Below, piece by piece: positions 10,437 through 46,188 of a stretch of 64,000 nt of DNA. Each line of letters starts with the position of its first letter. Positions within the stretch are counted from its first letter, which is position 1. Source of the DNA: Pleurocapsa sp. PCC 7327 (GTDB taxonomy: Bacteria; Cyanobacteriota; Cyanobacteriia; Cyanobacteriales; Microcystaceae); assembly GCF_000317025.1 (NCBI RefSeq), contig NC_019689.1:1465501-1529500 (forward strand). The letters are read 5' to 3'. The notes below the pieces were generated by a model. The model saw only the letters and a program-made list of their open reading frames with translations, ran no database searches and was not told where the DNA came from. Made by a program: the position numbers and the translations under genes.

Positions 10437-11738
10437 CTAGGAAATAATAACTTTCTCAGCTGTAGTATTTAAAGGCTCCAGGGCTGCTTTCTTCTCGCGA
10501 TCGCGTCCCTCTAAAATTTCGCTGTAAACAGACAAGTAGCGACGTGCTTGTAACTCTAGGGCAAATTCTCGCTCGGCTTTCTCGCGAGCGCTAAAGCGCA
10601 GTTTTTGATGGCGTTCTGCATCTTCTAGCACCCAAGCAATTCCTTGCGCTAAATCTTCAATTTCAAAGGGATTCGCTAGATAACCGTTTTGCTGATGGTC
10701 AACAATGTCTTTCAATCCCGTCGCCTTAAAAGCAACGACTGGCGTAGCGCAAGCAAGCGACTCGGAAGCCGTTTGTCCCCAAGATTCCTGAATTGATGGC
10801 ACGACCATGACATCTGCTGCCGAATAGGCACGAACCAATGAGGTGCCATCTAATGGGCCCAGGTAGTGCGCTTTAAAGCCTAAATCGATGGGATTGTCGG
10901 GTTCCGATGACCCAAAGACAATCAGTTCTATTCGCTCTCGCCATCCAGCCTTACTTAGGTTCTGTAGGGCTGGAACTAGAAGCTGAAACCCTTTCCGGCG
11001 ATCTCGAGTAGCGCTGAGCGCTCCAAAAAGAACGAGTTGCTTGTCCTGAGGTAACCTTAGAAGTTCGCGAGCCTTTTGCCGATCGAGAGGCTTATATTGT
11101 TCGGTATCGAGACAAAAAGGTATCACTTCGACTCGTCGATTCTTGAAAAGGGAGCTAGAACTCGCACAATTAGCCATCCACGTGCTAGGCGCAACAACGG
11201 TTAAATTAATATCCTTCCAAGCCTGGGCTTTACGTTGCCATACCCAGCGCGATAAATCCGATTCCTTGATGCTACGAAGCTGAGGACAAGCACCGCAAGA
11301 ATGGATGTAGCGATCGCACTCTTGGCTGTAGTGACAGCCTCCAGTAAACGGCCACATATCTTGGAGCGTCCAAACCAGAGGAACCTGAAGATTTTTGAGG
11401 TCTTCTATTCTTAAAAACTCCCAGCCAACCCAATGTAGATTGATGACGTTAGCCTTGAAACTTTTAATTCGATTCTGAATTAAAGAAGGGGTTGCATTGA
11501 TTGAAAAGGTGTTGTTATGCCCCCAAATTTGGCTGATTGTCCTGCCAAATAATTTTTCCTGGATCTTTTTGAAGAAGGCGGTTGGCTTGTCTAATTCGAT
11601 AACCGATTGATGCTGTGACCCTTTTTGGAAAACTAGCATCGAAGAATCTGCTCTTTCCTTGAGTAGTCCGAGGTGCAAGCGCGAAGCAGCGTGTCCGGCC
11701 CCCGAACTTTCATGCATTGCTAAATGTAGAATTTTCAT
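10437..11738 (-). CDS. GT4-family glycosyltransferase, WcaC-like
   Basis: A 433-residue GT-B protein. It opens MKILHLAMHESSGAGHAASRL and contains the segment NLHWVGWEFLRIEDL, followed by VWTLQDMWPFTGGCHYSQEC and a CGACPQL motif (about residues 95-160), the pattern typical of WcaC-like glycosyltransferases. The donor domain has FGALSATRDRRKGFQLL near residue 230 and WGQTASESLACATPVVAFKA near residue 320. It is expected to extend the repeat unit; the sugar is not readable. The polar C-terminal 25 residues are probably flexible. Confidence 0.88.
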   Translation of the reverse strand: MKILHLAMHESSGAGHAASRLHLGLLKERADSSMLVFQKGSQHQSVIELDKPTAFFKKIQEKLFGRTISQIWGHNNTFSINATPSLIQNRIKSFKANVINLHWVGWEFLRIEDLKNLQVPLVWTLQDMWPFTGGCHYSQECDRYIHSCGACPQLRSIKESDLSRWVWQRKAQAWKDINLTVVAPSTWMANCASSSSLFKNRRVEVIPFCLDTEQYKPLDRQKARELLRLPQDKQLVLFGALSATRDRRKGFQLLVPALQNLSKAGWRERIELIVFGSSEPDNPIDLGFKAHYLGPLDGTSLVRAYSAADVMVVPSIQESWGQTASESLACATPVVAFKATGLKDIVDHQQNGYLANPFEIEDLAQGIAWVLEDAERHQKLRFSAREKAEREFALELQARRYLSVYSEILEGRDREKKAALEPLNTTAEKVIIS

Positions 11739-41585: not shown

Positions 41586-41676
41586 GCATCTTTGAAAGGC
41601 GCGATCGCGTAGCGAGAGTCTCGGTTAATTTGGCAGAAAATGACATAATTTGCCATACTAGAGGAAATAAGTTGAG

Positions 41677-42848
41677 GGGAGCATCCAGTTTTGGAAGATT
41701 TACCATTTATGGGAAAATGTAAAGGGAAATAATCCTGTGCGATCGCTGACAATGAACCAAGAGAAACAAGAACGGATCAAAGCCTGCTTACAAGAATTGT
41801 CAACACTGCTGTATGAAGAAGCAGACAAAAGTAAGCTGACAGACCTTGAAGGCATAGAAAAAACAGTTCGCAGTCAAGTATTAGAACTAGTCAGCCCAGA
41901 AATAGCCCTTTTTTATCGAACAAAAAACTGGAACAAAAGTAGGTAAAACTAGGAAAATAAAAAGCCTAGTAGGGGAACTGAAATTAAAAGCCAAACAGCT
42001 TATTAGACTAGGTTTAAAGCCAAGAACTCGCCTAAGTCCATTACTTCAAAAGTGCTGTTTGAGGTTATCAGCTAACGAATCATACCAAAAAGCAGAAATC
42101 GAGATTGAGGCATTGACAGGAGTAAAAGTTGGTCATTCAACACAACAACAACTAGTGCTGTCACAAGATTTTCAACTACCACTTGCTAAACAATCAGTTT
42201 CAGAAGTCAGCGTAGATGGAGGAAAAGTCCGACTCAGGGGTAAACCGAAAGCAGGCTGCCACTGGCGAGACTATAAAACCGTTCGTCTGCAAGGGATTTA
42301 CTATGGTGCATTTTTTGATGACAACCAATCATTAATTGATTATGTCAATAGCCAACAGTTGTTAGACCCTCTTGTTTGCTTGGGAGATGGACATGATGGT
42401 GTCTGGAATCTGGTGAGAGAATTTGGACAAGACCAGTTTTCTCGCTGTGAAATTTTGGATTGGTATCACCTGAAGGAAAATCTTTATAAAGTTGGTGGTT
42501 CTTTAAAGCGACTCAAAGCTGCGGAAACTCTGTTGTGGCAAGGTCAGGTAGAAGCGGCCAAGACCCTATTTAATCATTGCCGAGGTAAACAAGCTAAAAA
42601 TTTCATCGCTTATCTGGAAAAACATCTCCCTCGCATTGTCAATTACAGCTATTATCAGGCTGAACAATTATGTTCTATCGGTTCAGGGGCAGTTGAATCT
42701 GCAATTAAACAAATTGGTTTAAGGATCAAAATTTCTGGCGCACAGTGGAATGTTGAAAGTGTCAATCACATCCTCTCTGTTCGTTGTGCTTATCTTAATG
42801 GTTTACTTGCTGTCTGATTGGGTGTTTCTTCCAAAAGTGGATGCTCCC
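41677..42848. mobile_element. ISKra4-type insertion sequence with 8-bp target duplication
   Basis: A 1,172-bp element bounded by 22-bp terminal inverted repeats (41677-41698 and 42827-42848; both read inward from GGGAGCATCC, with one mismatch in 22). It is flanked by identical copies of AAGTTGAG at 41669-41676 and 42849-42856, a clean target-site duplication. The transposase lies inside in two frames. Exact ends and target copies imply a fairly recent insertion. The right end is 29 bp before the parD start codon. Confidence 0.93.
41752..42817 (+). CDS. ISKra4-family transposase in two overlapping frames
   Basis: The 5' frame starts at the ATG at 41752 (MNQEKQERIKACLQEL; an upstream GTG at 41737 is possible) and stops at 41946. 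The remainder, from about 41920, is open in the +1 frame through KTGTKVGKTRKIKSL to 42817 and holds the DDE-like core: VSVDGGKVRLRG, LVCLGDGHDGVWNL, ILDWYHLKENLYKV and GSGAVESAIKQIGLRIK, then AQWNVESVNHIL. The join lies at T6 (41909-41914) or A6 (41922-41927), where ribosomal or polymerase slippage could fuse the frames. A simple inactivating indel is the alternative. Confidence 0.85.
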
Positions 42849-42877
42849 AAGTTGAGGAAGTAACGCTTGTAAAAAGC

Positions 42878-43135
42878 ATGAACATTTCCCTACCTGATTC
42901 CATGTAAGCTTATGTTGAACAACAGGTAGCCAATGGCGGTTACAGCAGCGTCAGCGAGTATTTTCGGGAATTGGTGCGTCTCGACCAAAAGCGTAAAGTG
43001 AATGAACCTCTCGAAGCGATGCTTTTGGAAGGTTTGAACTCTGGCGTAGCAACTCAGATGAGCGATCGAGATTGGGAAGACATCCGTCAAGCAGTAAGGG
43101 AGAAAGTTGCTAAGCGAACCAAGAGTAATGGCTAA
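42878..43135 (+). pseudogene. parD: ParD-type antitoxin with premature stop
   Basis: An 85-codon frame reading NISLPDSM-stop-AYVEQQVANGGYSSVSEYFRE, the ribbon-helix-helix pattern of ParD antitoxins (SLPDSM-x-AYVE...GGYSSxSEY). Codon 10 is TAA where homologues usually have a sense codon; one C-to-T change from CAA would explain it. The frame otherwise stays open to 43133-43135. The toxin ATG overlaps its end by 8 bp, a typical parDE arrangement. The IS element 29 bp upstream separates it from its original promoter. It is very likely dead unless the downstream ATG codons give a truncated product. Confidence 0.85.
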
Positions 43136-43175
43136 GGCAACTAAACGACCGCAAGTCATTCGCGATCTGATTGAA
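43128..43175 (+). pseudogene. parE: ParE-type toxin, 5' part (codons 1-16)
   Basis: The codons read MAKATKRPQVIRDLIE and stop matching at 43175, where the restriction-modification cassette begins. Joining this fragment to 45803 restores DLIELATYIGEDNLDACDRF in frame with no base gained or lost. RelE/ParE toxins typically begin with a helix like this. The host gene is broken here by the 2,627-bp insert. Confidence 0.88.
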
Positions 43176-43258
43176 CGGCGAAGTTGTGCGGCGGCAGATC
43201 ACCTTAAACTCTCACCGACAACCTCTGTTCCGTCCGCACCAACGCATTGTTAGGTGGC
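43176..43258 (-). repeat. attC-like recombination site
   Basis: Read on the minus strand, the site starts with GCCACCTAAC (R'' core ACCTAAC, matching RYYYAAC) and then an unpaired spacer. An L'' box TTGGTGCGGACGG follows, then a loop of about 33 nt, and the complementary L' box, to end at the C.G pair at the junction. The R' partner GTTAGGT is at the other cassette end (45794-45802), as expected after integration. Aligned arms differ only by two extra bases (G and A) on one side, equivalent to extrahelical bases. This is the standard attC architecture. Confidence 0.85.
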
Positions 43259-43266
43259 TGTTACTT

Positions 43267-44235
43267 CTACAAACTGCACAGCCAACGAGAAATAGATGCA
43301 ACTTGGTTCTCCTCATTTAGGTTTGCAGCATTACTGAGCATCCCACTTTGTAGTTGCTCCCAAATTTCGCCAGCCATCCTTCTCTCGATCGCTGCCCCTA
43401 CAAAAAAGGTAAGTGGTGAATGACCAGCATCTGCAAAGGCTTGTCGTATACGGTTCAGCGCCGCTTGTGCCGTTTTCCAATGCTCGTCAGCACCGGCTGG
43501 ATCAATTCCGCCCTTCAACTCTCCCAAGGCAATTGTGTAAGGCTCAACTTCAACAGGTTCTATCTTGCTGGATTTATTCGCGGGCAGTGCTTCTGGCGCA
43601 AGATTGAACAAACAGAGATCTACATTACTTTTAACCAACGGAATATTTAGGTTATAGATAAGTGTACGCCTGCCAAGATCACTCTCCCAACTGAGTCCGC
43701 GTAAAGATAACTCAATTTCTGCATCGTCATTTGTCATCGCTATCCACTTTTTTGTCTTTGAATGCTGCCAATGGTAACTTTGACCTGCAATGGTCAGGGT
43801 TGAAAGAATAGCACGAGTCAGTTTCCTTTGGGCGAGCGCTCCACCGACATTACGCATTGAACCACCGAGCGTATCGCCACGAGTCAATAGAAATCTAAAG
43901 ACTAATTCCTCTACAAAATTTGCACCTGCTGGTTCAAGAAAGTTCTTAATTAGACCGTTAATCGCATCAATTTTATCCTCTGCGGTCAAATGAGCAAGAG
44001 ATTTGTCCGATAATCCTGCCGCAGTCAACAGTCCCATCTCGATACCCTGAACGTTTAGCAAATCAGCAGGATTTCTAACTTGATTTGCTGCTGCTTGAAG
44101 TGCCCTTGCCTCTGCAACATAAGGGGTAGCCCGTCGATTCTTCTCAAGTGCAAGTGCCACAAAGCCCGCACGAGTCGCTTCATAGGTTGTTACAAGATCA
44201 TCACTAGACTGAAGATGGTTAAGATAAGCAGTCAT
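43267..44235 (-). CDS. AvaI/BsoBI-family type II restriction endonuclease
   Basis: A 322-residue protein, close in length to the AvaI and BsoBI enzymes. [21 protein letters not shown] near residue 240 supplies the ExK catalytic pair (GELKGG) and the 'GADEHWKTA' helix characteristic of this family; a further acidic residue upstream (SNVDLCLFN) completes the site. AvaI-type enzymes cut CYCGRG. It starts 9 bp after the methyltransferase stop on the same strand, so the pair is an operon. The attC-like site begins 8 bp beyond its stop. Exact specificity needs testing. Confidence 0.85.
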
Positions 44236-44244
44236 AGGATCAGG

Positions 44245-45678
44245 TTACTGTTTTCTCCATACATAAACACATTTTCTCAAGGGATCACGCCCATGATTTC
44301 CCATTTGCTGACTACTGTTACCCTTATCACCAGGCAAAACGAGAATATTTTCAACGATAAAACCTAGTTTCTCTGCAAAGTCAGAGAGGATCATATCCAC
44401 TGAAATACTTACGCCGGAGTAACGCACATTGTCATTGACCATAAATAACAGTGCCCCAGGTTTGAGTACGCGAGAACATTCTTGTATGACACAAGCCATT
44501 TCATAAAAGTAACCTCTCACCATCCTGGGTATTCCGTTATTATTTAATACACCCTGGAGTTTCTGATTATCTAAATAGTCTAGGATGGCTTGCAATAAAG
44601 GTTGTGAATTCGCAGTCTCTAAAGCCAAGTTCCAATTTGGATTGATAGCCAATAGATCTTTCGAGCGATTTTCAACTGTGCAACTTAACATCTCCTGTCG
44701 GAGATCGATTAGTCCCTTTTCAGAAACATCTAACAATGCAAGCTCTAAGGCATAAGTACGAGTGTAGTCATATCGATTGCAATAGGGTGGAGACGTGATA
44801 ACAGCGTCATAAATTGCATCAGGTAAAGTCGGCAGCAATTTTAGGCAAGATCCTTTAAGAAGTTTGATTTCACCTTGTGGTCTCCTAACTGAAAAAAGTT
44901 CTACCTGATGTGTAGGGGGTTCCAGATCATCAATAATTTCTTGGATTTTATTGGTAATAGCATAATCAAAATTTAGGATTTCACCTTTATTGAAAGGCTT
45001 TTTCCCCTGTCCACGACCGGAGCGATAATCCCAACGAAGATATTGTCCATCTTTGCGAGTGTAGCTTATAGACTCTAAAACACATAGTAGAGCAAAGAGC
45101 AAAACCTCTCGAACTCTTTCGCTCTCCTGATAACAAGCTCCGAGGTACTGCTCAATTGCTCTTTTATTTTCTGTAGAATAAGCTCCTTTTGTAATCCTAA
45201 ATTCTGGTAAACAGAACTCTTTATCAGCCTGTTTCCATATTTGCGAACTCAACCAAGTTTTAAGACGTACAAGATCATCGAATGTAAATCCTGTATCAAG
45301 GGCTTTCTTCGTCTCAATAATTTGTTGACCAATTGGTAACAATTCAATGCCATCAGCATTAAGTCCCAAATCACTAGCGGCAAACAAAGCCGTTCCGCTA
45401 CCTGCGAAGGGATCTAGAATCTTGCCCTGATTAAACCCGTATCTTTGAAATAAAAACTCAACAAGAGAAGCGGAGAAGGCTTCTTTGTACTTGTACCATC
45501 GATATATAGGTCTTGTTTTGTTAGCTTGAAAACTTACTAAAAGCCTAGTAAGTGCAGGCTGAACTAAAAACTTAGATTGGAAATGGTGCTGCAATTGCTG
45601 GTCAAGGTTGTCAATTTCCCTAAGAGCAATATTTTGCACTTCAGGAGCAATATCGGAGATGCTTGACAGACTTGCCAC
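44245..45678 (-). CDS. DNA (cytosine-N4) methyltransferase of the R-M pair
   Basis: A 477-residue protein starting with GTG. Motif I is [15 protein letters not shown] near residues 87-101 and motif IV is [15 protein letters not shown] near residues 288-302; the TSPPY form is typical of N4-cytosine enzymes. The order I, long insert, IV is of the alpha-like kind, with residues 110-270 as the probable target-recognition region. The C-terminal segment has [18 protein letters not shown]. It should protect host DNA from the adjacent AvaI-like nuclease. Its promoter must lie in the 124 bp between it and the cassette edge. Confidence 0.88.
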
Positions 45679-45802
45679 AAGTATTAGTCCCCATGAAACA
45701 CAGATCTGCCCATTATACCAGTGCCTCTAGGAGTCTGCCGAATCGAGGTTACATCGAATGACCTCTCAAGATTGCTCTAACAGATATGTGAAAGCCACCT
45801 AA

Positions 45803-46090
45803 CTAGCTACCTACATTGGAGAAGATAATCTAGATGCTTGCGATCGCTTTTTAATAGCTGCCGAAGAAACCTTCAAGCAACTAGCATAAATGCCTGGAAT
45901 AGGGAAACCTTGTCAATTTTCTAATTCTATTCTCGCGGGTATCCGGCAACAGGCTGTAAAAGACTATAGAAAATATCTTGTTTTTTATCGATCTACTGAC
46001 TCAGGAGTGGAAGTTTTCAGGGTTATTTATGGCGCACGTGACATCGAAGCAATCTTAGAAGAAGATTTGAGAAGCGATCGCCTCGATTGA
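45803..46090 (+). pseudogene. parE: ParE-type toxin, 3' part (codons 17-111)
   Basis: Continues the toxin frame: LATYIGEDNLDACDRFLIAAEE, then GCA-TAA-ATG at 45884-45892, then MPGIGKPCQF and FRVIYGARDIEAILEEDLRS, the RelE/ParE core that ends in a conserved 'YGARDIEAI' strand. The in-frame TAA (45887-45889) sits where homologues commonly have Gln or Glu in QLAxMPGIG. One change from CAA or GAA would explain it. So the toxin carries a nonsense mutation as well as the cassette insertion. Confidence 0.88.
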
Positions 46091-46188
46091 CTTTCAAGTC
46101 TAATTTTTTATAATCAGTTGACACGCCAGGGATAATATCGTCAGATAAGTATTCTTTCTAAACCCTGCTGCCTAAGACAGACAAAAAA

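Follow-up and report, generated by a model that had tools for sequence, protein, structure and literature searches.

A restriction-modification cassette very probably joined by an integron integrase at a secondary site in a parE-like gene of a cyanobacterium

Integrons have been reported in cyanobacteria (PMC2426708, PMC8618304), attC models for this group exist (PMC8352920), and restriction and methylation cassettes have been mentioned (PMC8618304). Restriction-modification (R-M) cassettes are described in Xanthomonas (PMC12444791), secondary-site and attG insertion is established in other bacteria (Francia 1993, Recchia 1994, Loot 2024), and off-target recombination is described for a mobile integron (PMC10127599). 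The locus analyzed here shares with sedentary chromosomal integrons the RYYYAAC-core attC, the extrahelical base, the gene-attC polarity, and the integrases and attI-like junctions found in the genome; it differs from them in that the cassette stands outside any array, has two genes, and carries its own promoter-like site. With the secondary-site and attG insertions the locus shares the single attC at one end and the clean join after G, whereas a natural cyanobacterial event is seen here and a laboratory assay there. The nuclease matches the AvaI/BsoBI R-M enzymes (PDB 1dc1) over its full length and retains the D, E-x-K, and H positions; unlike them, it is packaged as a cassette, and its relatives at loci L017 to L026 are without attC in the DNA examined. 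The Xanthomonas defence cassettes (PMC12444791) are likewise R-M systems carried as cassettes, but the one described here is solitary, cyanobacterial, and common to distant lineages. Papers from 2025 on defence cassettes in Vibrio and in mobile integrons, which PMC12444791 cites, provide a further likeness of the same kind. R-M cassettes, cyanobacterial integrons, and attG insertion are each already in print, and the present locus combines all three in a clear natural example. No title on dispersed single cyanobacterial cassettes or on AvaI-type cassettes was present among the matches listed in a literature search that lay mostly outside subscription papers.

The window, i.e., the whole stretch of 64,000 nucleotides that was analyzed, corresponds to positions 1465501-1529500 of a genome that consists of one contig of 4,986,817 bases and whose nearest relatives are cyanobacteria. 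A sequence-only reading of this DNA had placed an insert at 43176-45802 within a parE-like toxin gene, and these limits were found to be right. The 5′ piece of the gene (43128-43175, plus strand, codons 1-16), which reads MAKATKRPQVIRDLIE and matches an unsplit relative, ends at 43175, and the 3′ piece (45803-46090, plus strand) resumes at 45803 in the same phase, opening LATYIGEDNLDACD. In G054, whose genome belongs to the same order, an uninterrupted ParE homologue (locus L079) reads KRPQVIRDLIELATYIAEDSLDAS over the junction; therefore, the insert lies between two adjacent codons with zero bases gained or lost. This is the comparison with an uninterrupted parE that the reading had proposed, and it confirmed the junction. 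The reading had also described the rejoined frame as continuous, which is correct as to phase and to the absence of lost or gained bases, but the frame is not open, there being an in-frame stop at 45887-45889 in the 3′ piece. The Pfam ParE_toxin model matched the 3′ piece below its cut-off of 23 (E=0.003, 18.5 bits). The parD-like antitoxin frame (42878-43135, plus strand) has an in-frame stop at codon 10, an open relative of it exists, and its match to NCBIfam antidote_CC2985 (E=0.012, 15.7 bits) is far below the cut-off of that model. The whole integrated cassette (43176-45802, minus strand) comprises 2627 bp that extend from TTAGGTGGC to CGCCG, its ends being taken from the comparison with two other copies, L012 and L013. 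The edge sequence GTTAGGTGGC is found at 43249-43258 and its complement at 45794-45803, in agreement with the pair that had been noted at the right edge and inside the left end. On the minus strand, the insertion point lies between a G and the following TT, in a sequence that is neither attI nor attC.

The attC as integrated occupies 43176-43258 on the minus strand and consists of R″ GCCACCTAAC, an L″ arm with an extrahelical G, a loop, and an L′ arm, ending in CGCCG. Sites of this kind were searched for by blastn and with a covariance model instead of a strict RYYYAAC/GTTRRRY scan, which missed true sites at two loci of the same genome (L058 and L059). The model was built from 13 cyanobacterial attC, six of this genome and seven from related loci, with the window excluded. 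It matched 43169-43258 with 83.7 bits (E=2.1e-19), whereas the runner-up, which is the only other match in the 64-kb window, reached 8.6 bits. The score of the site is not fully independent because six of the 13 training rows come from the same genome and all were chosen by likeness to the local attC. In the 13-site alignment the inner arm was paired in 95.7% of the cells, both sides had changed in seven of nine pairs, and the extrahelical base was G at every site (13/13); the outer arm was paired in only 75.6% of the cells because its partner is often part of the next element. Slid controls of the whole structure scored far lower. In the excised-circle form, the bottom strand folded at -21.2 kcal/mol compared to a shuffle mean of -11.1, and none of 300 shuffles was as low. 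The integrated attC folds no better than its shuffles (z -0.13), which is expected since the partner bases are at the opposite end of the cassette, and this fold gives no support; the outer flank of the integrated site shows no fit to GTTRRRY. Comparison with Rfam yielded no attC-like match, its sole match being unrelated and below the gathering score. The refutations set by the sequence-only reading that can be run on sequence did not go against it, and its claim of a cassette that ends in attC, with the order leader, methyltransferase, nuclease, attC, was upheld.

A blastn search of the same genome with the 93-base attC located an 82% match at 4356183-4356270, and one of the two full intI genes of this genome (469.9 bits; family cut-off 265) lies 3.6 kb from it. 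The second intI (470.8 bits) is at 2932001. The 14 control genomes contained only weaker matches to the integrase family and zero above the cut-off. The covariance model detected 19 attC in this genome at E<=1 and 15 at E<0.001, six of the 15 being training rows; the genome-wide check that the earlier reading had advised thus returned both integrases and attC sites. The DNA upstream of both intI genes is near-identical as far as GTTAG, where the first cassettes start; beyond this point the two sequences part, as would be seen at an attI junction. The products of the intI genes at L058:6669-7640 and L059:9992-10963 differ, by eye, by one residue, and the two genes with their upstream DNA form a putative duplicated integron platform. 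The first cassette beside one of the integrases (L058:7843-10545, about 4352843-4355545 of the chromosome, G000:C1) carries a second R-M pair, in which a XamI-type nuclease (PF09572, 422.9 bits) is accompanied by an Eco57I-like methylase. At the same locus, the attC at 11180-11275 is oriented opposite to its neighbor, a possible cassette inversion. Elsewhere in this genome (L121:5073-5679) there is a weaker solitary attC of 31.9 bits located directly 3′ of a gene for 174 amino acids, between two longer genes.

We consider it highly probable that the insert is an integron cassette with a complete AvaI/BsoBI-family type II R-M system that was joined by an integron integrase at a secondary site in parE. 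Its identity as a cassette is supported by the attC, the exact ends, the unsplit homologue, the integrases and attC of the same genome, and six other loci. In the proposed pathway, a presumed cassette circle would be the substrate, an IntI like those in this genome would join it to an attG-type secondary site in parE, and joining between the G and the TT would split parE with no bases gained or lost. Because just one end has an attC, the cassette would be expected to re-excise inefficiently. The secondary-site insertion in a toxin gene that had been put forward from the letters is in line with the clean join after G, with the recurrence of both ends in L013, and with that of the start in the array at L012. 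The integrase of the host itself likely made the insertion.

A variant of this explanation, which we regard as possible although the less probable course, is that the cassette entered parE elsewhere and that a composite segment (41609-46159) was imported later as a block. The blastn matches of the window with the corresponding locus of a genome of the same genus (G002, L107) stop at 41608 and restart at 46160, and the flanks are 94-97% identical to those of the window; G002 is therefore without the whole segment, made up of a UPF0236-like gene piece, parDE, and the cassette, rather than without just the cassette. Thus, the insertion into parE may have taken place in a different bacterium. The UPF0236-like piece within the segment (42059-42817; 19.9 bits, below the cut-off of 24.3) belongs to a family that we take to be transposase-related. 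However, a deletion in G002 would give the same picture as an import, and the genome of the window itself encodes IntI and contains attC that are closely related.

Two further origins were weighed against insertion of a single cassette by an integrase. That a cassette array once stood here and decayed until only the insert was left is very unlikely: partial intI matches exist near attC at other loci of the same genome, but the ParE frame is split exactly with no extra bases on either side, which is strong counter-evidence, and the window contains no second attC. Even less credible is a transposon or MITE with the GTTAGGTGGC arms as terminal inverted repeats since, although the arms form a 16-nt inverted repeat pair that is 88% complementary, one of them is 73 bases inside the end, no target duplication is seen by eye, the model and the covariation identify both as attC core sites, the same cassette stands in an array at L012, and the insert encodes two proteins, one a nuclease and the other a methylase.

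The cassette, read on the minus strand, consists of a 124-base leader, the methyltransferase gene, the nuclease gene, and attC. The nuclease (43267-44235, minus strand, 322 amino acids) is a type II endonuclease of the AvaI/BsoBI family (Pfam PF09194, 570.9 bits). It aligns with BsoBI (PDB 1dc1) with 371.7 bits over 318 residues, and the D, E-x-K, and H positions that it keeps in this alignment are presumably the catalytic residues. The N4/N6 DNA methyltransferase (44245-45678, minus strand, 477 amino acids, GTG start) matches Pfam PF01555 (E=9.8e-11), and its translation includes the motifs DPFAGSGTA and TSPPY. The leader (45679-45802, minus strand) has a promoter-like site at 45712-45741 formed by TCGGCA, an 18-nt spacer, and TATAAT with TG preceding the -10; one such site was found in the leader versus 0.3 expected. 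The TATAAT is aligned in the leaders of all seven attC-bearing loci (7/7). At the same position, three of six relatives without detected attC have TATACT (L018, L019, and L023), and the other three diverge further (L017, L025, and L026). The promoter may be older than the cassette form. The R-M pair would be expressed from its own predicted promoter and hence would be a stand-alone defence unit. Avoidance of CYCGRG was considered as a sign of an active R-M system and rejected. This sequence is rare in 272 kb of the same genome (23 observed versus 161 expected), and it is avoided as much in G002 and G003 (3 versus 23.4 expected in 40 kb), two genomes of the same genus in which no match to the nuclease was found. 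GRCGYC and GRGCYC are also strongly avoided in the 272 kb of this genome and in the 40 kb of G002 and G003.

A scan of the genome collection with the nuclease identified 47 loci, and the attC model was run on 27 of them (all except L031-L047, L050, L051, and L056). An attC was found downstream of the nuclease gene at six loci, all cyanobacterial (L011-L016). The distance from the nuclease stop to attC is 8 or 9 bases in five of the six and 8 bases in the window. L012 is an array copy with five attC on the plus strand, in which the start of the cassette abuts the end of the preceding attC. It matches the cassette from base 1, and L013 matches bases 1-2627, with both ends exact and unlike flanks; among the six loci, the exact start is seen only in these two. 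In the 472 bases to the left of the L013 cassette no attC was found, and no name was obtained for the gene, if any, that this insertion interrupts. L011 begins with TTAGGTGGC followed by extra bases, and in L014, L015, and L016 the match to the cassette starts only at bases 42, 82, and 6, respectively. The nuclease frame of L016 has an internal stop after 110 amino acids and its attC is weak (31.3 bits), features of a decayed copy. L011 and L013-L016 have one attC each within the 9-13 kb examined, and most of their genomes have further attC elsewhere. The flanks of the window (1500 bases each, searched separately) gave nothing better than E=0.09 against L011-L016, and the flanks of these six loci had zero matches in common when compared with each other. 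A 238-base direct repeat, 75% identical, is located within 1 kb on both sides of the cassette in L014 alone. A target consensus from the three insertions in the window, L013, and L011 was dropped, the number being too small.

L017-L026 together with L049 produced zero attC matches in the DNA examined, and the full-length nuclease matches among them align over little beyond the genes. L048 and L052 match the nuclease only in part, and weak attC lie 2.4 and 0.26 kb downstream in them, respectively. A nuclease tree was built from 20 rows (the window and 19 of the 47 loci), including L049, a row that contains five stops and sits on a long branch. In this tree, the seven attC-bearing rows group together with support of 93/97, a grouping present in 92% of 200 bootstrap trees, just below the line at which the program assigns its star. 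Homologues of the nuclease were found in 12 of 50 genomes of the family, those other than its own being all 51-57% identical, and the same search found none in the three genomes of the same genus. The nuclease is 93, 93, and 90% identical to those of L012, L015, and L016, while the PyrFE identities to these genomes are 57 and 68% (in two pieces), 58%, and 64%; the genomes of the other three attC-bearing loci had no PyrFE match. The difference between 90-93% and 57-68% identity points to a horizontal spread of the cassette among distant cyanobacteria.

For 13 of the 47 nuclease loci, the genome was searched for integrases and attC. Among the matches listed (E<=1e-40), IntI was above the cut-off in one of the 13 genomes, that of L013. 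At E<=0.001, attC was found in 11 of the 13, with up to 60 in one genome and none in two. Across the family, attC was found at E<=1e-4 in 26 of 49 genomes and IntI above the cut-off in eight of 50. A sample of ten genomes with a match, in four contigs or fewer, was drawn from the 49 searched, and in it 36 of 52 attC had no detected neighbor within 10 kb and 31 of 52 had none within 20 kb, counts that are upper estimates because the stricter filters may miss weak sites between strong ones. An earlier sample of six hand-picked genomes had given 30 of 46, and in the genome of the window four of 12 attC were solitary. Solitary attC look common in the family. The siting of the cassette outside an array, which the sequence-only reading had called unusual, is as described but less unusual than it had supposed. 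We propose tentatively, as a view that may well be wrong, that cassettes in these cyanobacteria are mainly dispersed singles and that R-M cassettes with their own promoters travel as stand-alone defence units by means of borrowed integrases and secondary sites.

The locus records cleanly, in a natural genome, an integron cassette that lies outside an array, and for comparison there are the copy in an array, another insertion whose ends are the same, and a homologue of the target that is not split. What deserves follow-up is the wider pattern of dispersal, and the cassette is a way into dispersed cyanobacterial cassettes. How frequently cassettes settle elsewhere in chromosomes, and if self-expressed defence cassettes do so outside arrays more than promoterless ones, are now testable questions. 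In the same family, all eight attC of a contig from a two-contig genome (G067:C1) and six of the 12 in a one-contig genome (G063:C1) were solitary at 10 kb.
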